Source: a virus
Length of the DNA: 22,196 bases
Direction: 5' to 3' (one strand)
IMG/VR virus record: IMGVR_UViG_3300009091_000067
Location: 1-22,196 of that record
The notes beneath the pieces are model-generated. The model was not told the origin of the DNA. It ran no database searches and was given only the letters and a program-made list of their open reading frames with translations. Each line of letters starts with the position of its first letter. Position 1 is the first letter of the stretch. Shown in pieces: positions 1 through 19,669 of this stretch. Made by a program: the position numbers and the translations under genes.

Positions 1-2214
1 ACCACTACTTGCAAAATAGAAATATATGAGACCGCTTGGTAAATCCGTCAGTACCCCTGTAACAGTTCCCATTCCATACACACCAAAAGAAGTCATTCCC
101 CTTGGCAGGTCTGCTAATGCTCCATATATTTGAGTATCTTGACCTTGTAGAACCTTTAGATTAGGTGGTAAATCGACAAAATCGCCTGAAAACGTATTAC
201 TCCCACTCATATTAAGAGTGTCAAGACAACGAGCAAGACCACTTGTAGTTATACTTGTCGTAGGATAATTCGTTCCACTATGCAACCAATAAAATGAATA
301 TAGATTATTATAGTGCCTGATTGTTACATTGCACGAACCACTTGTAACCTTTAACCAAAATTGTCGCTGTGCGCCAAAGGTTATCGTTCTTGATGTGCCG
401 GGATTCTCTGTACCTCCTTCATTGTCATAGAACATACCATTCCCATCAACAGTCATATAACAATCCTGAACAGTACATTCTAATTGTAAATCTGCACATA
501 ACGAACCGTCACCTGTTGCACTAACAGGAACAATCATTGTAGTTGAAAGGGTACCACCAACAGTAGCTATACCATCAGAAGCACCTGAAATACCGTTCTT
601 TCCTGTTAAAGTACCACTGACTTTATTGCTTGGGAAAGGATAGAAGAAACCATCACCACTTGCATATAACGTACTAACTTCATCGGCTGTCAGGGCACGG
701 TCATAGAACATTAACTCATCAATAATAGCATTAGCCCAATCTGGACCACCCTGCCACTGATTACCAACATATATAGAAGAGTGAGGATAGTAACCATGAC
801 CACGAAGTTGCGATGAATAATCAATATCAGTATTTACATAAAGGGCTACTGTCTGTCCTACTTCCCTGACTACAAGAGTCACGTGATACCAAGTATCTAT
901 TACCCATGCTGTATCATTATTCCCGTTTTGATACCCTGATGTATTTCGTACTGTAAAATGAAGTTTATCATCAACATTATAAACATACAATATCATATTA
1001 TCCCAAGGAGTGGAAGGAGTTGTCAATCTCACCAAAGTAAACTCTCTCTCTTCTACTGATGGTAAAGTTTTTAATTTTGTCCAAAATGAAATAGAATATT
1101 CATTACCTGTTGGTGCAAAATAAATTGTACTATTGTCTAATACACAATTTGTACCATTACCAAAACTCATTCCATATCCACTCTTACCTGTTTCATGATA
1201 AGTTGGTGGAGTTGAACCGTCGTAAAGAGGATAGGAAGCATTTACTTCATTAACGGCATCACCACTTGCTTCCTCAAGTTTAAAATAACCTTTCAGTCGT
1301 GTATGTAAATTGGCACAGGTATGCCCTATTAACCTATGGTACATTGTCAGATTAGCAGAAACCGTATTTGCACCCCCACCTGCCGAAGAACCATACAGTT
1401 TTCCTTTAGCTGTTAATGTTCCTGATACAGCTGGAGTACTTATACCGGCACTTGCTCCATACAGTTTACCCCGTCCTTTTAAAGTACCTGAAACTGTATT
1501 TGCTCCACCTCCTGCCGTACTACCTGCAATAGGGCTTGCAGCCATTGCCTCCTTGAACGACATTATATTCTGACAACCAGGATCACCGCCAACGGTTGTC
1601 TCTCTGCCTACCGGACTTCCTGACGCACCACCTGACGGCATTAAGCGATATGCCATTAATACTCCACTATCACTACCTGCTGTATTATTGACAGTTGCCC
1701 CTGTTGGTTGTGTCCATGATGTTCCTGACTGATATGCCCAAGTATTGTCATCAGAAGATGCCCAAGAAGCAATGGCTACAGAAGCAGAAGCGCAGGTTAT
1801 ACCTGTAATCGTAACATCATAAGGAGAACCGGGTGCAGAGAAAAGAGCCGGAGCTTCCGTAACATCAACAGACCATGTATATCCTGACGTTGGTCGGAAG
1901 ACCATCATCATACAGGTATTGTTCGTACCGCCATGTGAGAACGAAGGGTTAGCGTCCCACGTTCCGTCATATACACAATAAAACCAAGTCGCTGTTGTAA
2001 ATGCTCCTGTAGTGGTCTGAGTGGTTAATTTCGTCCATGACTGACCACCATTATTATAGACAGCGTGAGTATCACTTTTTAATCTGTTAAAGCATACCAC
2101 TACCACTAAATCCCCACTTGACATACTCCCTGGCGGAGTAATGACAGTAGGAGAAGTAGAGTTCGAACCTGCATCAACAGGTGTCGAAGCTAAACCGTGA
2201 TATGTAATAGCCAC
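1..2214 (-). CDS. Tail fibre/adhesin with LamG-like and leucine-rich repeats (partial, runs off left edge)
   Basis: This frame is open for 738 codons from a GTG at 2214 to base 1, so the C-terminus lies outside the window. An in-frame TAA five codons upstream and no in-frame ATG until codon 31 favour the GTG start. Residues 1-225 form a beta-rich head. Residues 240-285 hold two copies of a linker of the form VSGTL...GKLYG.SAG, and a related copy follows at 532-555. Residues 308-520 read as a concanavalin-like/LamG jelly roll (ISFWTK, WYHVTLVV, ALYVN, IDELMFYDRALTADEVSTLY). From about residue 676, 22-residue units of the form G.L.DLP..L begin; three are visible. LamG and leucine-rich folds in phage fibres usually bind cell-surface glycans or proteins, so host recognition is likely. 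It is the most distal visible gene of the late operon, 43 bases after the 149-residue gene. Confidence -1.
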   Translation of the reverse strand, partial: MAITYHGLASTPVDAGSNSTSPTVITPPGSMSSGDLVVVVCFNRLKSDTHAVYNNGGQSWTKLTTQTTTGAFTTATWFYCVYDGTWDANPSFSHGGTNNTCMMMVFRPTSGYTWSVDVTEAPALFSAPGSPYDVTITGITCASASVAIASWASSDDNTWAYQSGTSWTQPTGATVNNTAGSDSGVLMAYRLMPSGGASGSPVGRETTVGGDPGCQNIMSFKEAMAASPIAGSTAGGGANTVSGTLKGRGKLYGASAGISTPAVSGTLTAKGKLYGSSAGGGANTVSANLTMYHRLIGHTCANLHTRLKGYFKLEEASGDAVNEVNASYPLYDGSTPPTYHETGKSGYGMSFGNGTNCVLDNSTIYFAPTGNEYSISFWTKLKTLPSVEEREFTLVRLTTPSTPWDNMILYVYNVDDKLHFTVRNTSGYQNGNNDTAWVIDTWYHVTLVVREVGQTVALYVNTDIDYSSQLRGHGYYPHSSIYVGNQWQGGPDWANAIIDELMFYDRALTADEVSTLYASGDGFFYPFPSNKVSGTLTGKNGISGASDGIATVGGTLSTTMIVPVSATGDGSLCADLQLECTVQDCYMTVDGNGMFYDNEGGTENPGTSRTITFGAQRQFWLKVTSGSCNVTIRHYNNLYSFYWLHSGTNYPTTSITTSGLARCLDTLNMSGSNTFSGDFVDLPPNLKVLQGQDTQIYGALADLPRGMTSFGVYGMGTVTGVLTDLPSGLIYFYFASSG

Positions 2215-2257
2215 CTGAGTGAAGTATTAGATAAGGGTTTTGAGTAAACCCTGATTA

Positions 2258-2707
2258 TTAGTCTTCACTTACATCAAGATCACCGATTGCAAACTCCGGT
2301 GTGATACCTGAAGAGATTGCCAGTGGTGAAGTGAGTTCTCCCCAATAGATAGCATCATCAACACCTGACGTACCCGCCTTACATATAGCAAAGGCACCAG
2401 CGGTATTACTACCACCTGTACAGGGATCAAACGTAATAGCTGCCTCATTAGATGTAGCACCTGATGCTGTTACCCAAGAACCTGCTGCACGGGCTACTGC
2501 CTTGCGGGCATAACCTGTGTAATCACATTCTGTTCCCTGAGCTGAATCTGATGGTTCGGAACCATCTTTGAAAAGGGCAATATAGAAATTGCCTGCTGTA
2601 ACTGAACCTCTCAGTCCACCTGCATCTCCAATAAGTGTAATATCCGCATTCTCGAATATTAACTGGAGTAACGCTGTTTCAAACGAATCTTTTTTACTTC
2701 CTGCCAT
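2258..2707 (-). CDS. Tail-associated phage protein, 149 aa
   Basis: The pattern is that of a widespread phage virion-associated protein usually annotated as tail or hypothetical. It starts with SFETALLQLIFENADI, then a GDAGGL...A.NFYIALF segment, YTGYARKAVARAAGSW, EAAITFDPCTGG, a small-residue segment and IYWGELTSPLAISSGITPEFA near the end. I recognise the motif order from memory of many phages, not from a search. The protein is acidic and beta-rich, without signal peptide or membrane segment. It lies between the lipoprotein and the large adhesin in the late operon. A fibre-attachment or structural role is inferred. Start ATG at 2707 has no Shine-Dalgarno site; the leader is A/T-rich. Confidence -1.
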   Translation of the reverse strand: MAGSKKDSFETALLQLIFENADITLIGDAGGLRGSVTAGNFYIALFKDGSEPSDSAQGTECDYTGYARKAVARAAGSWVTASGATSNEAAITFDPCTGGSNTAGAFAICKAGTSGVDDAIYWGELTSPLAISSGITPEFAIGDLDVSED

Positions 2708-2731
2708 TGTCTTAAAATTTAATTGTTTGTA

Positions 2732-3355
2732 CTAGAAATTCCTTCTTTTTATATATATAATTGAATCTGCATCCTGAACAAATGTAAAATATCTTGCTCC
2801 ATAACCCGTTACGGCATGACCTTTAGCAGTCCATGTAATCATCATGTCTTTCAGATAACTGCTATCACGGTAAACGTTCCGTAAATTAGGAAAACTATCA
2901 GGTGGAAAAGCACTTGTTGCTGAAGTATCCCTTACTATTGCATCCATTCTTTTTGACTCCCAGTAGATCATCCTATCAGCTGCATCGTATACATCGTCAG
3001 CATTTTGTAGGTTCTGAGCCGTTAATGTGGGATCAATATGGAACGTAGGTCGGACTGTATCAACCAGGGAAACGGTAAATTGAGTTTCTTTCCAATTTCC
3101 AGCATTATCTGTCGCTCGTATCTTAACGGTAGCCACTTTATTTGTTGCAGTGAGTAAATACCCTGCTGCCGGAAGCTGAGTAAGAGAAGATAAAGCACAA
3201 TTATCCGTTGCTGTAACCTTAGTCAGATAATTAGGAAGAGGAGCTTCACAGGTATTTGGTCCAGCGTAAATGACTTGCGGTGGTATCTGTGAGAGTGTGC
3301 AAACACAGCTACTTAAAAAAGCAGCTACAAACGATAAAAGAATTAGTTTTTTCAT
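2732..3355 (-). CDS. Lipoprotein with HYR/Ig-like domain
   Basis: The 207-residue product begins with a lipoprotein signal peptide: MKKL, a hydrophobic core, then LSSC with the lipidated cysteine at residue 17. After cleavage, residues 28-98 resemble a HYR-type immunoglobulin fold: PP.V.YAG, VTATDNCALSSL, VTIRATDNAGN-like VKIRATDNAGNW, FTVSLVDTVRPTF. The C-terminal half, about 105-207, is not recognised. HYR domains are common in Bacteroidota surface proteins and occur in adhesion. A membrane-anchored lipoprotein inside a tail-gene cluster could block superinfection, aid lysis, or be a surface decoration; the sequence does not choose. Its start overlaps the stop of the 102-residue gene by four bases (ATGA), so translation is coupled. 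Gene identity is firm, function open. Confidence -1.
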   Translation of the reverse strand: MKKLILLSFVAAFLSSCVCTLSQIPPQVIYAGPNTCEAPLPNYLTKVTATDNCALSSLTQLPAAGYLLTATNKVATVKIRATDNAGNWKETQFTVSLVDTVRPTFHIDPTLTAQNLQNADDVYDAADRMIYWESKRMDAIVRDTSATSAFPPDSFPNLRNVYRDSSYLKDMMITWTAKGHAVTGYGARYFTFVQDADSIIYIKRRNF

Positions 3356-3660
3356 ATTTCTACATTATAAATTCCTTGTTCAAGAGTATAAGTAACTTCA
3401 CCACTTTGCATGGTCATATTATTAACAGTTTCACCAGCAGATCCATAAATTATGGAAGGTTGATGCCACCATGGATAATAAGGCCACCACGGATAGGTGG
3501 GAACGGGATCAGTCCAAACAATGGTTGTGTTGGACTCGATTGAGAATTTCTTCCAAAGCCCGTTGGGAAGCAATTTCTCAAGGGCTTTAATCAACTCATT
3601 AAGATTTACTGTACCTTCAACCTTAATGGTTTTTGCTGTTGTGTCAAGTTGTAATTTCAT
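3352..3660 (-). CDS. Small phage protein of unknown function, 102 aa
   Basis: The start reads MKLQLDTTAKTIKVEGTVNLNELIKALEKLLP, a pattern I associate with small proteins of Bacteroidota phages in tail and lysis regions, although no function is known to me. Residues 50-67 hold an unusual aromatic-proline stretch (PTYPWWPYYPWWHQP), suggesting an exposed binding or membrane-interface segment. The C-terminus (TLEQGIYNVEI) is beta-like. No signal peptide or transmembrane helix is present. It overlaps the upstream membrane peptide by four bases and the downstream lipoprotein by four bases, so the three form a tightly coupled unit that may act at the cell envelope. Confidence -1.
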   Translation of the reverse strand: MKLQLDTTAKTIKVEGTVNLNELIKALEKLLPNGLWKKFSIESNTTIVWTDPVPTYPWWPYYPWWHQPSIIYGSAGETVNNMTMQSGEVTYTLEQGIYNVEI

Positions 3661-3758
3661 TGATTAAAAATACTTTTTGTACTAAAAACAATTATGAGCA
3701 CTATGATTAATAAAATAATATGCCACCAGTCTTTTATAAATTCCCAGAGTTTTTTCAT
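3657..3758 (-). CDS. Tiny single-pass membrane peptide, 33 aa
   Basis: The peptide begins MKKLWEFIKDWWH and continues with one hydrophobic helix at residues 11-26 (WWHIILLIIVLIIVF), ending STKSIFNQ. A longer reading from 3842 exists, but it would overlap the end of the 888-residue gene by 34 bases and add a poorly hydrophobic N-terminus, so I chose the internal ATG at 3758. The stop overlaps the next start as ATGA. The size and topology would suit a pinholin or small envelope peptide, and the neighbouring lipoprotein makes an envelope role plausible, but neither is shown. It could also be a leader to its neighbour. Confidence -1.
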   Translation of the reverse strand: MKKLWEFIKDWWHIILLIIVLIIVFSTKSIFNQ

Positions 3759-3808
3759 GCTTTGTTTATTATAATTTATCAAACCACTTTTCCCTGATAT
3801 GATAATTT

Positions 3809-6475
3809 TTAAGAAATAACACTCGGTTTTATTAATAGACAATTTCCTAATGTATAATTATTTGCATTTTCTCCTGTTTCAAGAATCATAAATACATAAT
3901 ATCCATTAGACATTCTTCCTATATATGAAATACCTCCAAGAGCAGCATTTAATGGAACTTGATTAAATATTCTACTAAAAAATCTTCTCTTATCATTTGA
4001 AAAAGTTATCCATCCTTTCGGGTTAGCATCACGTCCTGAAAAGAATATAGAAAAGTAATTATCAATATTTACCCCATAACACCAATCGTCTTCTTTATAT
4101 ATTAATTCTAAATTAGTCTCAATATTGGCTACGTCTGATCTTAATATTCTTGAAACTCCCCTCCTTGCAGAGTTTACTTCAATTACATAATAAATATAAT
4201 CATCGTCAAAATGAATACCAGAGGACTGCCACATTCCATTAACGTCATTTGACGTTTTAATCAAGGTTAACGTCCAAGCATCAGTTGTAGTATTGTATGT
4301 AACTGAATGAAAATTTATATAATTATTTACTCCATCCCCATCTCCGGACATTAAATACCATACTCCACCAATGGCATCATATCTTATGTACTGAACGTGC
4401 CTTGCTAATAAATTAGGCGCACCATATAGGTAAAAACTCTTAATAGTAACCCCACCATCAATAGTATACCACACGTTGACATTATTAAACTCAGCAGTAC
4501 CTCCCGTAACGTATGTTCCCCAAGTTCTTATATGAACCCCATTAACAATAGCCTCATTTTCATCACGTGTCCATGCCCTAAAATTATTTAATGTTCCCGG
4601 AACAAAAGGATTACCGTCAGCACCCAATACCGTACTCTCCTGATATGTTGCCAAATCATCATCGCTATAATAACATTTAGTGTGATCTGAAAATCCTATA
4701 TTTCCATTATCATAAAAGAAAGCATCTACAATTTCATTGCAAGTAGTTACAAGACTTATTGGATAAGTAACTCCATTATCATTACTTAAATAAAGTGTGT
4801 GAACATCATCAAACTTTAAAACTTTTGCACCTTTAACAGCGCAAATATGATCACCTACAATAACATCAAATTTCAATATAGATTCTGCTGTCCATTTTAT
4901 TATTGTTTCATAATCTGTTCCGGTCTTATTTGTGGCATATCTTAATATGTCCGTAACCTTTCCACCCGACTCTTTTACAAAATTTAAACCCCGATAATTA
5001 TCGTTAAAATAATTGGATATGTCTTTGTTATTTAATTCGACTCCATGTAACAAACTAACTCCTGCTGCCAAATAATAATTCTGTAATATGGTTTGCCTTG
5101 CCAGAAAACTACACTCAGTTGTATCTGACCTGTCAATACCTGTTATAGTAACATAACTTTGAGCCTTATTAAATTCAATTGGAGAACCCGGAACATCTGA
5201 ATCTTTAGTATATCCTGCGAATACGTGTGACGTAGGAGTGTTTGTGTCTTCATAGGCTACTTGAAATTCTTTATTAGGAAAATCAATATGTCTTGTATAT
5301 CCAACATCTAAAAGTTGACGAGAGCCATAAGCGTCATAATTATAATTTGCATTTGTAAATGTTAAATGTTTTCCATTTAATCCGCTATCCGGAGTCGTTG
5401 TACCGATATAAGTTGCTAATGGGTAATTAAATACAGGCTTTGAAATATGACCTTTATTGTATAATGTAGTCTGTTCTGTCGGAGTAAGAATTTTATTAAA
5501 TATTCTTATATCGCTATAATGATTTGCCTGTCCTCCAAGTGTAGGCGCACCATCAGCATCGGCTCCGCATACATTTATATAAAATCTATATTTATTATCA
5601 AGAGCCGATAATGTCCCTGTAAAATCAACGTCTGCACCTATTTGAACATTATTTACAAACAAACGCATTTTTTTCGTAGTATAATTAACGTCCATCAATA
5701 AAAATGCCCACGTTAGCGTTGTATAGTCTATTGTTGAAACACGGTTAACATACCCACCAGATGATTGTAAATAAGCAAGAATATATCCATCTGTTATATT
5801 CGCTAAAATCCCATACCTACCTACCCGGCTACCTGCTATCGGTTTTCCAAACAAATACTTATACCCCGCCTTTGCTGCTGTGATATTATTTGCCCACCCA
5901 CAAAGAGTAAAACCCTGATCTCCATTACCCAGAGGATTAGTGCCAAGATTATTGATAATATCCATTGCTCCATTATCATTCACATAGGCATATCCATTAG
6001 TTTCAAATCCCAAATGTGGTAATGTAATAGTTTCATCTCCCACACCCGGATTTACAGAATCAGGTAATGTTAATCCACTTCTTGTACCTTCCCGATACCA
6101 AAAATTTGGAGTTTCTCCATCTAATTCCTGTTCAGGAGTCCATTCAATACCACTACAATTCCCACCTATAATTGTCCTACCAGAAACACTTCCTTTAGCA
6201 TAATACGTGGCTGGACCAAAAATAGGGAAAGAACCATGTATATAACCTTCCCTCTTTGCCTTATAAAGTGTAACATTGGTAGCTACACCATTTACAAGGG
6301 TAAACGAAACAGTATCATGCACCTTTACATTCCACTTTGCAGGTACCGTACCAAAAGCAACCTCATCTGGACGAGTAAACGAATATTCTATTCCCGTCTG
6401 AAAATCTATGAGGATCCCTTTGTTAGGAGTTTTCCACATTCCTTTATGCATTACCTTTACTATTCCGTAGGACAT
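3809..6475 (-). CDS. Tail fibre with LamG-like domain and Asp-box beta-propeller, 888 aa
   Basis: Residues 3-72 resemble a cold-shock/OB fold (GIVKVMHKG, KGILIDF, EYSFTR, VKVHDTVSFTLVNGVATNVTL). Residues 186-342 form a LamG/concanavalin-like jelly roll (FTLCGWANN, WAFLLMDVNY, MRLFVNNVQIG, SDIRIFNKILTPTEQTTLYNKG). Residues 540-888 look like a sialidase-type beta-propeller, with Asp-box motifs at 564 (SNDNGVTY), 671 (TIDGGVT) and a weaker one at 604 (SDDDLATY). Such modules bind or cut glycans, so this is a likely receptor-binding fibre. The start overlaps the terL stop by one base (TAATG) and has a strong Shine-Dalgarno AGGAGG eight bases upstream, rare in this window, suggesting strong translation. 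No catalytic set for sialidase could be confirmed. Confidence -1.
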   Translation of the reverse strand: MSYGIVKVMHKGMWKTPNKGILIDFQTGIEYSFTRPDEVAFGTVPAKWNVKVHDTVSFTLVNGVATNVTLYKAKREGYIHGSFPIFGPATYYAKGSVSGRTIIGGNCSGIEWTPEQELDGETPNFWYREGTRSGLTLPDSVNPGVGDETITLPHLGFETNGYAYVNDNGAMDIINNLGTNPLGNGDQGFTLCGWANNITAAKAGYKYLFGKPIAGSRVGRYGILANITDGYILAYLQSSGGYVNRVSTIDYTTLTWAFLLMDVNYTTKKMRLFVNNVQIGADVDFTGTLSALDNKYRFYINVCGADADGAPTLGGQANHYSDIRIFNKILTPTEQTTLYNKGHISKPVFNYPLATYIGTTTPDSGLNGKHLTFTNANYNYDAYGSRQLLDVGYTRHIDFPNKEFQVAYEDTNTPTSHVFAGYTKDSDVPGSPIEFNKAQSYVTITGIDRSDTTECSFLARQTILQNYYLAAGVSLLHGVELNNKDISNYFNDNYRGLNFVKESGGKVTDILRYATNKTGTDYETIIKWTAESILKFDVIVGDHICAVKGAKVLKFDDVHTLYLSNDNGVTYPISLVTTCNEIVDAFFYDNGNIGFSDHTKCYYSDDDLATYQESTVLGADGNPFVPGTLNNFRAWTRDENEAIVNGVHIRTWGTYVTGGTAEFNNVNVWYTIDGGVTIKSFYLYGAPNLLARHVQYIRYDAIGGVWYLMSGDGDGVNNYINFHSVTYNTTTDAWTLTLIKTSNDVNGMWQSSGIHFDDDYIYYVIEVNSARRGVSRILRSDVANIETNLELIYKEDDWCYGVNIDNYFSIFFSGRDANPKGWITFSNDKRRFFSRIFNQVPLNAALGGISYIGRMSNGYYVFMILETGENANNYTLGNCLLIKPSVIS

Positions 6476-8046
6476 TAACTTATCCTCCTTGCTATTTTTT
6501 TACCTATTAATTTATTGAAAGCTCCAGCAGCAGCATCAACCTGGTCCTTATATGTACTAAATGGAAAGAACCGATGTTCTTCAATAAAGTCCCGGTTCCA
6601 CATTCCATTTAATATTAAAAAGGCACCATTGTTTACCTGTACAGAATAAGGATCAGCGCGGAACACCTTATCCCCCGTAGGGCGTTCCGCACGGACGACA
6701 TAACCTGCGAGATTACGAATTGTTCCTTCGGCTGATTCCTTACCCCCACTACCTGGTTCTTGCTCTATCCAAATTTCCACACTCTTACCATCTACTTCTG
6801 CTGTCTGTCTTATAATTTTTTCACGTTCGTGACTGCTCCACCTACCCCGTTTTACATCTTCAATAATCCAACGGTTGCCTGTTAAACGACTCATTCGTAC
6901 ACCTACTGTAAATGCACCATCGCCTTCAGTACCTGCCTTGTCCCAATATCTTATCGTATTTATTATATCTATTGGTTTAGCAGGAGAGGTAGCCATTGCA
7001 AAATGATCCACCTTAAACATACCTCCTCCAGGAGGTGTGGGATCTTGACCAATCTGTCCTGCGTAGCCATACTGTCCTAAATCAGCCTCCATGTCTGTTA
7101 GTACAGACCAAGGCATTCTGTTAGGATCTAATAAGTCGTCTTTATAGTTAGCAATTAACTCTGGCGGATTCACTTGGTTTTTGTAGTTTCTACACTCTCC
7201 AGGGAGACAAATGTGCCTTACATTACCCTTATTTTTAGCCAACGTGTGACCGCTCGGATCGTCCTGATGCAGTCTCTGCATAATCAATACAGTTGGTGTA
7301 ATGGACTTGCTTGTCTTACGTGTGGATAAGGTTTGCTCTACCCAGTAGTTTGCATTCTTAAGTTCTATCTCACTTGCTGCTTGAACCGGGTTTAACGGGT
7401 CGTCTACTATTAATATATCCCCGTGAAATCCCATCAATGTTCCTCCAACTGACGTGCTGTAACGACTACCACCTACAAGCATTTGTGGTTGGCGTCCTGG
7501 AGACGATATTACTTGCTTTACGATCTTATAATTTGATTTAACGTCCTTGTCCTCTTTAATCATTAACTCCGGGTACAGTTGCTGAAATTCTGGACTCCTG
7601 ATTAAATCACGACAATACTCTGCAGACTCTAAGGAAAGTGTAGCAGAGTACGAACTGGTGATAAACCGCATCCAGTACCATTTTGTCCAACACCACGCCG
7701 GGAACATAATACTGCACGTGATAGTCTTCGTACTTCCTGGAGGTACGTTAATAATCAAGTCATATTCCCTCGGCAATCTTGCTGCGACGCGCTCCGCCAC
7801 TTTTTCAAGCTCCCTACATAAAAGCTCGATGTGCCAGTTTGGCTGAAACGTGTGTGGGCTGACAATGTGAAAGAAATGCTGTAAAAAGTGATAGAGACTG
7901 CGGTTATTGAGTTCGCGGATGACGGCTGTAGGATTGTACAATGCCGCCATTGCTATCTTGGATTTAGGTTCCTTTGTCCTGATCAGTTCAGTTGATCTTT
8001 TGGGCCTAGGTTTCCTTGTCCTGGTTAATTCAGTTACTTGAGACAT
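6475..8046 (-). CDS. terL: Terminase large subunit
   Basis: This 523-residue protein is the packaging motor and head-filling nuclease. The ATPase has a Walker A-like loop at residues 101-108 (VPPGSTKT), a Walker B at 211-216 (ILIVDD) and a coupling-type segment TVLIMQRLHQDDPSG at 252-266. The RNase H-like nuclease half shows D369 in IRYWDKAG, E428/E430 in IWIEQEPGSGG, and a late acidic pair in STYKDQVDAAAGAF (D501, D504). The length is typical. Its start overlaps the end of terS by 17 bases and its stop overlaps the fibre start by one base. Residues 5-32 consist of a tandem duplication of a basic 14-residue unit, so the true start could be the methionine at residue 33; no Shine-Dalgarno site decides. 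Confidence -1.
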   Translation of the reverse strand: MSQVTELTRTRKPRPKRSTELIRTKEPKSKIAMAALYNPTAVIRELNNRSLYHFLQHFFHIVSPHTFQPNWHIELLCRELEKVAERVAARLPREYDLIINVPPGSTKTITCSIMFPAWCWTKWYWMRFITSSYSATLSLESAEYCRDLIRSPEFQQLYPELMIKEDKDVKSNYKIVKQVISSPGRQPQMLVGGSRYSTSVGGTLMGFHGDILIVDDPLNPVQAASEIELKNANYWVEQTLSTRKTSKSITPTVLIMQRLHQDDPSGHTLAKNKGNVRHICLPGECRNYKNQVNPPELIANYKDDLLDPNRMPWSVLTDMEADLGQYGYAGQIGQDPTPPGGGMFKVDHFAMATSPAKPIDIINTIRYWDKAGTEGDGAFTVGVRMSRLTGNRWIIEDVKRGRWSSHEREKIIRQTAEVDGKSVEIWIEQEPGSGGKESAEGTIRNLAGYVVRAERPTGDKVFRADPYSVQVNNGAFLILNGMWNRDFIEEHRFFPFSTYKDQVDAAAGAFNKLIGKKIARRIS

Positions 8047-8536
8047 TCTTTGCCAGTATATCTTGTGGTAATTGATTCCTCAACCCTACCTTTTTCAACG
8101 CCATCAGTTCTTCCGTGGTTATCCCTGAAAAATCCATCTTGAGGATATTGAGGTTGGTGTGGGTGGATTCTGTCTTGGTGATCTCCATCCACTTGCTCCG
8201 CTGACGGATACTCAGCCATTTGACCGCGGCCCAGCTGTCAGGCGGATAATGCTTAATAATATCTGTGAGTACGACCTCCCCTCCCACGACCGAGACTTTC
8301 GTTTCCACGTGTGAATACCCAATCGCCTTCCTGTACAATGCTACGGCCACCTTTGCGTCGGCAGTTGCCTTTCCTTTATTCAGCATTCTGGCGAAACCTG
8401 GCTTTGTCCTTTTCCAATACGTGAGAGTATGTTCACTGACCTCCATAAAGTCTGCTATCTCTCGATCCGTGCATCCAAGCAATGCTAATTTGAATGCTTG
8501 CTTAGGACGATTCCGATTCCATTGAATCTTTTCCAT
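8030..8536 (-). CDS. terS: Terminase small subunit
   Basis: The 168-residue product carries a helix-turn-helix at about residues 23-43 (CTDREIADFMEVSEHTLTYWKR), the DNA-recognition module of small terminases. A helical, lysine-rich middle (KGKATADAKVAVALYRKAIGYSH) and a segment PPDSWAAVKWLSIRQRSKW, common in this family, follow. It would bind the packaging site and feed DNA to the large subunit. An upstream ATG at 8614 is in frame, but it lies beyond the predicted promoter -7 box (8572-8579), so the start at 8536 is preferred. It is the first gene of the late operon and overlaps terL by 17 bases. Confidence -1.
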   Translation of the reverse strand: MEKIQWNRNRPKQAFKLALLGCTDREIADFMEVSEHTLTYWKRTKPGFARMLNKGKATADAKVAVALYRKAIGYSHVETKVSVVGGEVVLTDIIKHYPPDSWAAVKWLSIRQRSKWMEITKTESTHTNLNILKMDFSGITTEELMALKKVGLRNQLPQDILAKNVSSN

Positions 8537-8571
8537 GACTAATCTGACTTTGACTTTGACTAATTTTACGT

Positions 8572-8604
8572 CAAAATTACAACAAAATCTAATAGGGTCC
8601 AAAT
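8572..8604 (-). promoter_or_regulatory. Bacteroidota-type promoter for the terS/late operon
   Basis: Reading leftward, TTTG at 8604-8601 is followed by 20 bases and then TAATTTTG at 8579-8572. This matches the known Bacteroides/Flavobacterium housekeeping consensus, a -33 TTG and a -7 TAnnTTTG separated by about 19-21 bases. Transcription would start near 8565, giving a leader of about 30 bases that contains GTCAAA GTCAAA GTCAGA before the terS ATG. Palindromes at 8681-8690 (TGTACGTACA) and 8741-8756 (TTTCAAA-2-TTTGAAA) lie upstream and could be operators. Confidence -1.
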
Positions 8605-9948
8605 AAAAAAACAATTATTTTTTAAAAAGGTTACCTGAGCCGCAATCTGACGCTTTCTGCACAACCACTTTTTTTACGTGTGTACGTACAAAAGCTATCT
8701 GTTTTTTATTGTACTTCGGGTGGAGGGTGGTTTAGAACCATTTCAAAAATTTGAAATTTTGATAAGGTCGGTTTCACACCAATTCAATTTGTGCGTATGA
8801 AGGAACCGCATTGAAAGACCTGAGCAAAACCAGGCATTCAACGCCGGGGGGGTGCCACGCAGGACCTCACACGATGCGGCAATGCACTGCCATACTACTT
8901 TCTTGTATGCCTATTACGCACTACCGCACTCTGGCAGTGCCATCGTGCCAACGTGTGGTGTGGTACGGTATACAAACATATATGGTAATATGCCTTTACC
9001 GCACATCGTCTGCGGTGATGCGGCATCCTTACTTTCTTGCGGTAATGCCGTATCTCTCTGAGCCATAGTGCCTCTCAATGCCGCATCAATACACAACCAA
9101 AACGCCATGCCTCAGGCAGGCAGACCGTGGCGATTCTTGCCACCACTTCAACCTTAAACATATTACACTATTATATCTACCACAACACCACTCATCACTG
9201 CGACTGTGGCTGATACGGCTATTCTTTTACCTATTACTTACTTTACATTAATAACTAATATCGGGTAAACTTATTTTTTTATGGTCACTTACTCATTACC
9301 TTTAATGTGACCAAGTTATACCTGGTTATACCTATAGTTACCAGGTCATGCCTATAGTTACCACACTATACCAAGCAGTACCACATCATACCAATAATTA
9401 CCTGCCAGTACCACTATATTGCCTAATATGCCTTTTTACTGTGGTAAATTAATGATGCCATATTATTATTTTTTACAGTACACTACATTGCCTACAGTTT
9501 ATTAGTTGTAACATCGTCCACGTGTCAGCCTATACCACTACATTTGTAGGTGTACATTATATGCCTATAGTTATTTTTATGGCAGATATATGTTAATTTA
9601 TTGATACTCAGTACTGATCAATTTATGGTTACTCTATACCGCATTCTTACAAGTGATTGGACCAACGTATGGCAGGCAATACAAACGTATTGACCACATA
9701 TTACAAGGCAGATCAGGCGTTTTCTGGCAGTTTCTGAGCCATGTTTTGGCACTACCGCAATCTGTATTGACTTCGCGGTAGCCAACGTATTTTTGCGGTT
9801 GTGAGTATATTGTGATTACAATGTACTGATTACCACTATGTTCAGGCTAAATTATACTAAATTACTGTTCTTAACGTGTTTTTTTATGCCTGTAATGTTT
9901 TGATTAACAGCCTTTTGTAACCTTTTTTAAAAATACCTTTAAAAAAAT
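8605..9948. other. Intergenic region saturated with TRCC/GGYA; candidate origin, pac or partition-like site
   Basis: No convincing gene is present in this 1.3 kb. The tetranucleotides TACC/TGCC and their complements GGTA/GGCA recur at very high density from about 8855 to 9785. In 8878-9016 they form inverted pairs: GGCA-6-TGCC (8878-8891), TGGCAGTGCCA (8932-8942), GGTAA-7-TTACC (8984-9000) and ACCGCA-7-TGCGGT (8998-9016). In 9299-9432 they become direct 10-bp repeats. At 9752-9781 CTACCGC pairs with GCGGTAG across 16 bases. The motif CCAACGTRT occurs at about 8948, 9661 and 9782. Position between divergent operons and next to terS fits an origin or packaging site; that is inference. Confidence -1.
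9299..9432. repeat. 10-bp phased TRCC direct-repeat array
   Basis: The dinucleotide CC occurs at 9311, 9321, 9331, 9341, 9351, 9361, 9371, 9381, 9391, 9401 and 9411, exactly 10 bp apart, and continues at 9422 and 9431; one more lies at 9299. Nearly every CC is preceded by TA or TG, giving a decamer of the form CCWNNNNNTA whose interior is not conserved. A spacing equal to one helical turn puts every site on one DNA face, as expected for a cooperatively binding protein or for phased DNA structure. It is not a classic tandem repeat, since the inner bases differ. Confidence -1.
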
Positions 9949-9979
9949 TTGTTTATTACAAATATAGTTCCTAAATTTG
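9949..9979 (+). promoter_or_regulatory. Rightward Bacteroidota-type promoter
   Basis: TTG at 9949-9951, a 20-base spacer, and TAAATTTG at 9972-9979 match the -33/-7 consensus. The start would fall near 9986, directly at a perfect hairpin GGTTTT-GAT-AAAACC (9987-10001). A small inverted repeat TTTGT-TTATT-ACAAA covers the -33 side. The next secure gene begins at 10722, so the transcript would have a long leader or be an untranslated RNA. The same ten bases TAAATTTGTA occur at 10455 and 15577. Confidence -1.
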
Positions 9980-9985
9980 TATTGT

Positions 9986-10310
9986 CGGTTTTGATAAAAC
10001 CACAAGCGTTCGTTGAAATGTTGAGAATCAGGCGGTTAAGGACAAGACGGCATGATAAGGCACTGAGATACAGTGGTTTCAGACCTTACAAGACAGATAC
10101 AGCGTATCCCTCACCCTTAAACACTTGCGAATCACCGTGTTCACAGCCATGTGAGCCGCATAATCGCTCGAAACACCGCAGAACCTCACAATGACAGTGA
10201 TCAGGCACGCGACGCCATATTCCCTTCCACAAACATCAGAACAGGGAGTAGAGAACAAGGTGTTAAAGGCTTAGAGCTGGTTTTGTAAACAAGGTTCCAC
10301 GTGAGCTATA
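9986..10310 (+). ncRNA. Possible structured untranslated RNA or long leader
   Basis: No convincing coding sequence follows the promoter at 9949-9979. Several short hairpins do: GGTTTT-GAT-AAAACC at the predicted 5' end, CACTG-AGATA-CAGTG near 10061-10075 inside TAAGG...CCTTA, TCACA-GCCA-TGTGA near 10140-10155, and TCAC-AATGACA-GTGA near 10186-10200. A 5'-terminal hairpin often stabilises RNA. No clear terminator marks the 3' end, so the extent is a guess, and short hairpins can arise by chance. Confidence is low. Confidence -1.
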
Positions 10311-10577
10311 TTAATCCCGATTGTACCCGAATATACTATCTTCCCGAAGCCAGTCGTCATTCAAAGAGGTAAGACTACCAATTACCAAACTTGCTGGCCT
10401 AGGTGTGTTTAAGGTGCGCTTTTGATGTGTACGGTGCCCCCTACAAACAAGGCATAAATTTGTACACTCCTGAATGACAGGCATAAGGACGCGATTGACA
10501 TTTTTGAACATACCACGGGGTGACGTAGGGTACGCAAGTTATTATACATTAGGACGTATAATGAAGCACATTTGTCA
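10311..10577. other. Intergenic stretch with weak promoter-like elements
   Basis: I see no gene here. A TAAATTTGTA box lies at 10455-10464, but it lacks a TTG at the right distance. A TTGACA at 10495-10500 has no matching -10. A TATAAT at 10557-10562 lies about 15 bases before the tRNA-like fold and may supply its 5' end, though no good -35 precedes it. A short leftward reading frame in this stretch has unconvincing composition. Confidence -1.
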
Positions 10578-10666
10578 GGACACTATTAAAAAATAGGGGT
10601 GACTATTTTTTATGACCCGTTTGTACGTGTTATAAGGGGTCGGCAGGTCGAACTTGCCAGTGTCCA
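10578..10666 (+). ncRNA. tRNA-like cloverleaf leader RNA
   Basis: Four arms close in tRNA order. GGACACT (10578-10584) pairs perfectly with AGTGTCC (10659-10665). After a two-base joint, an A/T-rich arm of 10 bp (10587-10596 with 10603-10612) carries a six-base loop. After one base, GACCC (10614-10618) pairs with GGGTC (10637-10641) around an 18-base loop. Directly after comes a T-arm, GGCAG/TTGCC with the seven-base loop GTCGAAC, six of seven positions matching TTCRANY. The joints (2, 1, 0, 0) mimic a tRNA, but the D-arm analogue is too long, the anticodon loop is too large, and 3' bases are ACA, not CCA. It is not a functional tRNA by sequence. It lies 56 bases before the lysine-rich gene. 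Confidence -1.
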
Positions 10667-10721
10667 CAATGTAGTATGGTGCTACAGATTTTTATTATTT
10701 TTTAACTTAATTTATTTTATT

Positions 10722-11162
10722 ATGGCAAACGTTGCTAAATCACCCGTCGCAAGTGACAATCTTGCAAATTCCAGTAAGCCTCAGGCTAATCCTTTTGAAG
10801 GTACTACCAAAAAGGTCGTACTGGCTGAGAACAGTAAAAAGGCTCAGGAAGTCCTCAAAGGCAAAGGCAAAGCCAAAACCGAAAGTAAAGGCAAAGCCGA
10901 AACCAAAAAGGCACCTAAAAAGGAAAGAGCTGAAAGTAATGAGCATATTGGCGAACGTCTGTATGCCGAAAAGGCAAGTGAACAGAAAGTATTGGCCACC
11001 TTTACAAAGGTTTACAAGGACAAAAAAGGAATTACAGACAAGAAGTTCATTAAGGCACGGGCAGAGATTTACATGGCCATAGCCGAAAAAAGAGCTCTGG
11101 CAAAAAAGGAATCCAAAAAAGAAGTTAAGGAAGCCGAAACCAAAAAGGCAAAGGTAGCCTAA
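10722..11162 (+). CDS. Lysine/alanine-rich basic protein, 146 aa
   Basis: The product starts MANVAKSPVASDNLANSSKPQANPF, has a disordered central stretch of KGK, KAK and TKK repeats at about residues 48-75, then a helical part (NEHIGERLYAEKASEQKVLATFTKVYKDKKGITDKKFIKARAEIYMAIAEKRAL is its span, residues about 80-130), and a second lysine-rich tail. It recalls histone-like or DNA-compacting proteins in charge only; no family is recognised. An upstream ATG at 10599 is in frame but would translate the tRNA-like RNA, so the ATG at 10722, after an A/T-rich leader, is preferred. It is the first gene right of the TRCC region and ends at a strong terminator, so it is a single-gene unit. Confidence -1.
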   Translation: MANVAKSPVASDNLANSSKPQANPFEGTTKKVVLAENSKKAQEVLKGKGKAKTESKGKAETKKAPKKERAESNEHIGERLYAEKASEQKVLATFTKVYKDKKGITDKKFIKARAEIYMAIAEKRALAKKESKKEVKEAETKKAKVA

Positions 11163-11184
11163 TTAAACTTCGCAGTTTAAAAAG

Positions 11185-11215
11185 AAGGACGAGCGTTTTC
11201 GCTCGTCCTTTTTTT
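11185..11215 (+). terminator. Strong intrinsic terminator
   Basis: AAGGACGAGCG pairs with CGCTCGTCCTT around a TTTT loop (11 bp) and is followed by T7 at 11209-11215. It ends the lysine-rich gene unit. The T-tract runs straight into ATGGTTATAAT, so the terminator of one unit abuts the promoter element of the next. Confidence -1.
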
Positions 11216-12520: not shown

Positions 12521-13015
12521 ATGAAAACAATTCAGCATCCATCGTTCGTTCGCTTATTGAACAATATTGTGAACGAGATTCCTATGAAATCTTCAGGAAC
12601 CTATAACAGGGCTGATCCTACATGCTTTGAAAAAGGAGAGATGAAATTTTCTTACAAAGGTAAGAAATTCCTTATCAGGTACAATGATTGTACCTGGGGA
12701 GTTGAAATTACCATTTACAAAATGGTATGCAAATATCCTCAGTTTGAAAATGATTCTTCATGTCCAGATCACTTTCTTTATAGAGAGGAAAAGATTGCAG
12801 GTTTCTATATCTCCAGAGAAAGAGGATTTGAAAAAGGTAGAGGATTCTACAATTATGAAGTAGTCGTCCTGAGACAAAAAGGATTGAAAGGAATGCCAGG
12901 CTTGCTTGGTAGAGCTTTTCGTCAATGCCTAAAACCTGATTTCATAAGCCTGAAAGAACAGATGTTTATGAAAGAAATGGAAAATGACTGGGGTTTGATG
13001 AAAGAGTATGTTTAG
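12521..13015 (+). CDS. Unknown protein, 164 aa
   Basis: No family is recognised. The N-terminal part (MKTIQHPSFVRLLNNIVNEIPMK) is helical, followed by a beta-rich stretch with cysteines and aromatics (YKGKKFLIRYNDCTWGVEITIYK, HFLYREEKIAGFYISRERGFEKGRGFYNYEVV) and a helical C-terminus. The frame is cytosolic by composition. Start choice: the ATG at 12521 gives the long frame; an ATG seven bases earlier opens only 30 codons. The leader again has TATTCACCAAA and GACAAATGA. It is a single-gene unit with its own terminator six bases after the stop. Confidence -1.
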   Translation: MKTIQHPSFVRLLNNIVNEIPMKSSGTYNRADPTCFEKGEMKFSYKGKKFLIRYNDCTWGVEITIYKMVCKYPQFENDSSCPDHFLYREEKIAGFYISRERGFEKGRGFYNYEVVVLRQKGLKGMPGLLGRAFRQCLKPDFISLKEQMFMKEMENDWGLMKEYV

Positions 13016-19171: not shown

Positions 19172-19669
19172 ATGGACAACATCGATTTAATCAGAAAGAT
19201 AGCATGGTCTTTCCATTATACAACAGGGATGGAGTGGGAGGATCTCTTTCAAGAAGCAGCCTTAGCCTGTTGTGAAGCAATGAAAAAGTATTCTCCAGAT
19301 AAAGGTAAACTATCTACCTATCTATGGCGATGTATGACTAAGCGTCTACAAACCTATCTACAAGAGCAAGACCACTACAAGATACACAAGGACTGGAGAA
19401 GTAATACCACAGGCATTTGTTCTATTGAAGATGTCAAAGTAAGTACGACAGTAGAAATGGAATTCTGGTGGGAGTCTTTATCAGATGAAGCATATGAGAT
19501 TGCTAAGGTAGTGATAGCTTCTCCAAAACCTTATTTAGAATTAAGAAACCTCAACAAATCTATCAGTAGAATCAAACACGTTATGAAAAATAATGGATGG
19601 GACTGGAGAAAGATACGCAGAGGTATTACGGATTTAAGAATGGCTTATTCAAAAGAATTTCTTGTATAA
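19172..19669 (+). CDS. Small phage RNA polymerase sigma factor
   Basis: Residues 12-66 match sigma-70 region 2: FHYTTGMEWEDLFQEAALACCEAMKKY, then SPDKGKLSTYLWRCMTKRLQTYLQEQ; DLFQEA and the KG.LSTYL stretch are the best-kept parts. The C-terminal part (ISRIKHVMKNNGWDWRKIRRGITDLRMAY) looks like a helix-turn-helix, related to the ends of other phage sigma-like proteins (GW.W.RI...F.EIR). At 165 residues it lacks region 1.1 and a full region 3. It probably redirects host RNA polymerase to phage promoters. Whether it activates late or middle genes cannot be told; the TATAAT elements upstream are candidates. Confidence -1.
   Translation: MDNIDLIRKIAWSFHYTTGMEWEDLFQEAALACCEAMKKYSPDKGKLSTYLWRCMTKRLQTYLQEQDHYKIHKDWRSNTTGICSIEDVKVSTTVEMEFWWESLSDEAYEIAKVVIASPKPYLELRNLNKSISRIKHVMKNNGWDWRKIRRGITDLRMAYSKEFLV

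Follow-up and report, generated by a model that had tools for sequence, protein, structure and literature searches.

In an uncultivated phage, a non-coding stretch between divergently transcribed genes carries eleven CC dinucleotides spaced exactly 10 bp apart, a phasing far beyond chance. The CC steps sit within a core, TRCCW, that recurs at every tenth base pair, successive cores being separated by five bases that are not conserved. The array is read here as a possible cis-acting docking site for an oligomeric DNA-binding protein, of the kind represented by ParR/parC centromeres or by iterons; the features on which this reading is built leave it with about an even chance of being correct.

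Genomic setting of the array

The window, by which is meant the whole 22,196-bp stretch of DNA that was analysed, is virus record IMGVR_UViG_3300009091_000067 (G000). The same phage is also represented by IMGVR_UViG_3300006224_000025 (G001, 32,795 bp), which has 10,158 bp identical to the window, and the two records together bring the known genome of the phage to ~44.8 kb. G001 ends at window position 10158, within the non-coding region. Known phage DNA offered no close counterpart of this part of the genome, as positions 8000-11200 had no blastn match in 50,697 phage records. The best matches of TerL among isolated phages are to Cellulophaga (39% identity) and Croceibacter (37%) phages, which makes a host among the Bacteroidota likely.

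The array occupies the middle of a divergent intergenic region of 1,984 bp, at a distance from both of the outward-pointing promoter matches described below. The first-pass annotation had described it as lying between divergent operons, about 770 bp upstream of terS, and this placement holds, with a measured distance of 775 bp to the terS start and an array that is directly observed to be non-coding (no open reading frame of at least 60 aa covers it, and a period of 10 is not divisible by 3). No Rfam match to a known RNA was found in the window, nor in the intergenic region at E values up to 1. To the left of the array, terS and terL are oriented leftward, and TerS possesses an N-terminal helix-turn-helix (HTH) together with a strong small-terminase match. 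To the right lies a rightward early operon that includes a helicase, a sigma-like protein encoded at 19172-19669, a primase and an endonuclease VII-like protein, and its first gene, encoding a lysine-rich protein, gave no relative in the IMG/VR search. Translation of terS probably begins at ATG 8536 rather than at TTG 8614, because a promoter match falls between the two and both the promoter and the lengths of related proteins fit the ATG better. Matches to the Bacteroidota-type promoter pattern number three in the window as against 1.4 expected; two of them flank the intergenic region, and both point outward (Table 1). The -7 box just upstream of terS is also present in the related loci L019, L020/L021, L044 and L052. 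Cumulative GC skew has a local minimum near the array, a signal that is confounded by transcription.

A separate observation concerns the proteins of this phage group, several of which are unrelated to one another and nonetheless start with MERTK or MKRTK (window 13444, 16337 and 21941; L016:8266; L017:614; L009:2477). In terL, TRTRKP...IRTKEP is found near the N-terminus. The recurrence suggests a shared N-terminal tag or a translation-start signal.

Table 1. Positions in the window of the array, its internal repeats and the flanking genes and promoter matches
Feature	Position	Strand	Basis or remark
terS, small terminase	8030..8536	-	start taken as ATG 8536
Bacteroidota-type promoter match, TTTG-N20-TAATTTTG, just upstream of terS ATG, directed away from array	8572..8603	-	pattern match
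Perfect 7-bp inverted repeat TGGTCAC...GTGACCA, including site 1	9282..9313	-	one of 19 such stems in 22 kb
Phased array, CC at 9299, 9311-9411 every 10 bp (11 sites), 9422 and 9431	9299..9432	.	CC positions
Two near-identical 20-bp copies, TACCTGGTTATACCTATAGT / TACCAGGTCATGCCTATAGT	9319-9338, 9339-9358	.	TRF, 88% match
Sites 2 and 4, mutually inverted, ACCTGGT / ACCAGGT	9320..9346	.	sequence
Bacteroidota-type promoter match, TTTG-N20-TAAATTTG, toward rightward operon, away from array	9948..9979	+	pattern match
Lysine-rich protein, 146 aa, first gene of rightward operon, no family	10722..11162	+	

Phasing, core motif and spacers

Every CC position listed in the first-pass annotation was recovered. 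The spacing is exactly 10 bp from 9311 to 9411, after which a step of 11 leads to 9422 and a step of 9 to 9431, where register is regained; the CC at 9299 lies 12 bp ahead of the first site, and one further CC, at 9405, is out of phase. The 134 bp hold 13 TRCC words, with site 9311 itself reading GACC. That the period should exceed the level of shuffled sequence was the check proposed with the original observation, and it does. When the 134 bp were shuffled 20,000 times with dinucleotides and CC count preserved, and periods 5-15 were evaluated, the best run was 7 sites and appeared once, as against 11 in the array. Runs reached at most 6 when 13 TRCC words were placed at random (50,000 trials) and likewise when the 1,984-bp intergenic region was shuffled (2,000 trials). 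The wrapped-column statistic at period 10 gave z values of ~14-16, and autocorrelation of RCC gave z10=8.5 and z5=-0.6. Aside from the array's own 20- and 30-bp multiples, no other run of more than 5 CC occurs in the 22 kb at any period from 3 to 39.

When the 11 units are aligned on CC, the core stands out directly, with T in 10/11, a purine in 11/11, CC in 11/11 and A or T in 11/11, while the remaining five columns are near random (0.02-0.51 bits); the minus strand accordingly reads W-GGY-A-N5. Mean pairwise identity among the spacers is 0.26, as compared to 0.27 expected from composition. Because spacer identity is at the level of composition and the core is invariant, phase and core look as though they have been kept by selection, and do not resemble a fresh tandem repeat. 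The spacers nevertheless show a weak alternation with a super-period of 20 bp, identity being 0.37 between units separated by an even number of steps and 0.17 where the number is odd (P=0.02; P=0.057 with units 5-11 only), and the adjacent 20-bp copies in the left part of the array are a sign of possible growth by 20-bp duplication.

These data refine two statements made from the first look at the DNA. The array had been called a repeat of phase and not of sequence, which holds only approximately, since TRCCW is conserved, the spacers have a super-period and 9319-9338 and 9339-9358 are near-duplicates. Its sites had also been placed on one and the same helical face. The pitch is indeed near that of a helical turn, but steps of 10.0 bp on DNA of 10.5 bp per turn drift by 17 degrees per site, which adds up to half a turn from one end to the other (resultant 0.61). 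Phased DNA curvature, offered at the same time as one explanation of the array, is not supported, for the predicted intrinsic curvature at the array is average and ranks at the 55th percentile within the window (wedge model).

Phased patterns in related phages and in IMG/VR

A TerL search of IMG/VR yielded 57 loci, many of which have a non-coding stretch of 0.6-2.2 kb upstream of terS. The expectation that relatives would have a 10-bp periodicity in this interval was borne out only in part. The TRCC array itself is in none of them: of 37 TerL-related records, 0 have even four RCC at 10-bp steps. L019, the closest relative having the intergenic region (TerL 75%), has no significant phasing, L043 has none, and that of L026 is marginal and not clear. 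Upstream of terS in L042, within the divergent region (4080-4190), A recurs every 10 bp ~11 times (z 5.8, 0/120 shuffles), and the corresponding divergent regions of L021 (5715-5850) and L023 (200-330) contain 13-bp phased arrays (0/120 shuffles each), with AGTAAGGTAATAA-like units in L021. The phasing in these three loci is weaker than that of the window array and is built of other sequence. Hexamer vocabulary common to the relatives' divergent regions stays close to shuffle level. Judged from sequence comparison, the intergenic locus is a place of recurring phased patterns with sequence turnover, and the TerS recognition helices, which vary among the relatives, turn over too.

The array also stands apart on a wider scale. 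A scan of IMG/VR for six TRCCW at 10-bp steps found 72 stretches, most of the others being plain tandem repeats, and the spacers of the window array are by far the least similar (0.29, the next being 0.51), making it the only one of its type with unrelated spacers in that scan. A looser pattern scan of IMG/VR returned, among the matches listed, many arrays in which RCC recurs at 5-bp intervals. These non-coding RCCNN arrays (GGYNN on the other strand) include, among the matches listed, L131:414-930, L166, L085, L110, L151, L156, L163 and others; they reach up to 99 units (L131), often occur several to a locus, and mostly have a homologue of Vipr, the protein of the VIPR systems discussed below, nearby. 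On their sequence features, the 5-nt RCCNN loci are unannotated VIPR loci. A Vipr profile, grown from a protein taken as the SUSP1 Vipr by its gene position and flanking GGY arrays, identifies relatives at 37 further loci, the majority of which have 5-nt GGY arrays. In the array of L098 (1386-1592), GGY is found only in every second pentamer, the other pentamer being mostly TGY or AGY, and a two-phase vrRNA consensus is possible there.

Candidate functions of the array

A docking array is favoured because of the fixed 5-bp core in every turn, the near-helical pitch, the 20-bp super-period, the place between outward promoter matches that is seen directly in the DNA, and the recurrence of phased patterns in relatives. 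From these features we infer protein binding, oligomerization and a role for the resulting complex. A homo-oligomeric protein of the phage (or of its host) would recognize TRCCW through the major groove, one core in each helical turn, its neighbouring subunits lying 10 bp apart and probably forming pairs over 20 bp. Eleven to 13 subunits or dimers would thereby cover ~110-130 bp of DNA with an unbroken nucleoprotein complex, wrapped or solenoid-like, and such a complex would most likely serve replication initiation or other genome handling (packaging, partition), and not simple operator repression of one promoter. A cooperative DNA-binding protein had been put forward in the first-pass annotation, and it remains the best reading on the anatomy of the array, although no Pfam match to ParM, ParR, RHH or TubR was found among the proteins scanned from the ~44.8 kb. 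Also against docking are the lack of the same array in any relative, including the absence of significant phasing in L019, the half-turn drift of the 10.0-bp spacing and the weakness of the spacer alternation.

The closest known likeness is to plasmid centromeres, in which the binding sites of ParR are repeats of 10 bp (pB171), 20 bp (pSK41) or 11 bp (R1) (PMC9426499). The parC site of R1 consists of ten tandem direct copies, and its reader is ParR, an oligomerizing ribbon-helix-helix protein (PMC9426499, PMC5016525). Like these centromeres, the window array comprises tandem direct sites of such a pitch in a non-coding region, but there the whole repeats are usually conserved, whereas here only TRCCW is; moreover, an adjacent parM-parR operon was not found among the phage proteins scanned with Pfam. 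Because no partition gene was found, the array is not classed as parC. With iterons the array shares direct sites in an intergenic region where transcription diverges, but it has no adjoining initiator gene. Replication-origin iterons, unlike the window array, are usually longer and conserved over their full length.

A narrower version of the docking array, and a special case of it, would make the array a pac site, with the TerS ring displaying its HTH domains about one DNA turn apart and the DNA wrapping round the ring. This is quite unlikely. The 775 bp that separate the array from terS are few enough to count as proximity, the HTH of a protein with so strong a small-terminase match would suit a 5-bp core per turn with one HTH on each site, and phased arrays and TerS recognition helices both differ between relatives. 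DNA wrapping is one of two published models of TerS (PMC11331095); the same paper places wrapping and internal-channel binding under major debate and describes the structure of a small terminase on DNA in which the recognition sequence is defined, both of which weigh against the pac reading. So does L008, in which the TerS recognition helix is nearly the same (VSEHTITYWKRTKP) and no array is found in a 21-kb contig, although that contig is incomplete and the evidence against TerS as the binder is weak. Pac sites, besides, are usually in or next to terS, and the distance that can be taken as proximity is on this measure a difference.

VIPR systems, newly reported in phages, employ vrRNAs composed of GGY/NN tandem repeats at a 5-nt pitch, with 9-16 units, hypervariable bases between and a structured 3' tail (PMC13142463). 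The minus strand of the window array could correspond to a VIPR-like tandem-repeat guide RNA of 10-nt instead of 5-nt pitch, with GGY as a scaffold held by protein, the variable bases as guide and the hairpin from 9313 to 9282 as 3' tail, an explanation regarded as unlikely. All sites read GGY, the VIPR scaffold trinucleotide, on that strand, in 11-14 copies with variable bases between; a minus-strand transcript would form the hairpin directly 3' of the array, where a VIPR tail is found, and its loop holds ACATTAAA, which by eye is like the tail of SUSP1 vrRNAs. VIPR loci are likewise phage-borne with long intergenic stretches, and part of the array of L098, a genuine Vipr locus (Vipr E=4.6e-23), shows GGY at a spacing of 10 nt. 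The pitch of the window array is nonetheless 10, with no 5-nt signal in RCC, and the base after GGY is A in 10/11 units and so not hypervariable, although the other bases vary; no close relative with a differing array was found. The hairpin has a folding z of only -1.9, and such stems occur about once per kb. Neither G000 nor G001 contains a Vipr relative by phrog_4652 or by the profile grown here, which detected the positives SUSP1, L098 and L166, although the genome may not be complete and Vipr types are divergent; there is no second array; and a gapped target for the guide was found nowhere in the collected loci beyond the array itself, none being extended in IMG/VR, where the three-unit matches L335 and L336 do not extend. 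One further protein, encoded at window 12521-13015, was considered as a RAMP candidate for its glycine-rich stretch and rejected, with an hhalign probability of 0.1% and a single-sequence model (mean pLDDT 61.8) that predicts a five-strand meander and not the RRM order. Because the defining features tested, a 5-nt pitch and a nearby Vipr gene, were not found, the array is not classed as VIPR, and membership is not supported; that it represents a VIPR-like guide RNA of a novel kind, with GGY anchors every 10 nt, variable words of up to 7 nt and a partner protein undetected or acting in trans, is considered quite doubtful. A decayed 20-bp satellite, that is, a functionless relic of tandem duplication, would account for the near-duplicates and the super-period, but neutral decay should strike core and spacer alike, and CC, R and W are retained in 11/11 units beside spacers at chance identity, with zero indels over 100 bp; elsewhere, most 10-bp tandem repeats of this word consist of copies that are nearly identical. 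Such a relic is improbable. A rightward transcript that is C-rich and G-poor, with CC every 10 nt, might instead constitute a Rho-utilization (rut)-like element, as Rho binds spaced YC steps and C outnumbers G on the plus strand most markedly in this part of the window (GC skew -0.31 in 9000-9499). Rho, however, needs neither an exact 10-nt period nor TRCCW, and a rightward transcript is not evident between outward promoters, making this idea highly improbable. Both the relic and the rut-like element are less likely than the docking array.

Were the array a true relative of vrRNAs with a 10-nt pitch, it would broaden a new class of RNA guides that are non-contiguous. If it is instead the protein-docking array favoured here, it would show, with uncommon clarity for a natural sequence, selection acting on spacing around a minimal core, and it would offer a direct handle on a switch in replication, packaging or partition in a group of uncultivated phages whose hosts are probably Bacteroidota.
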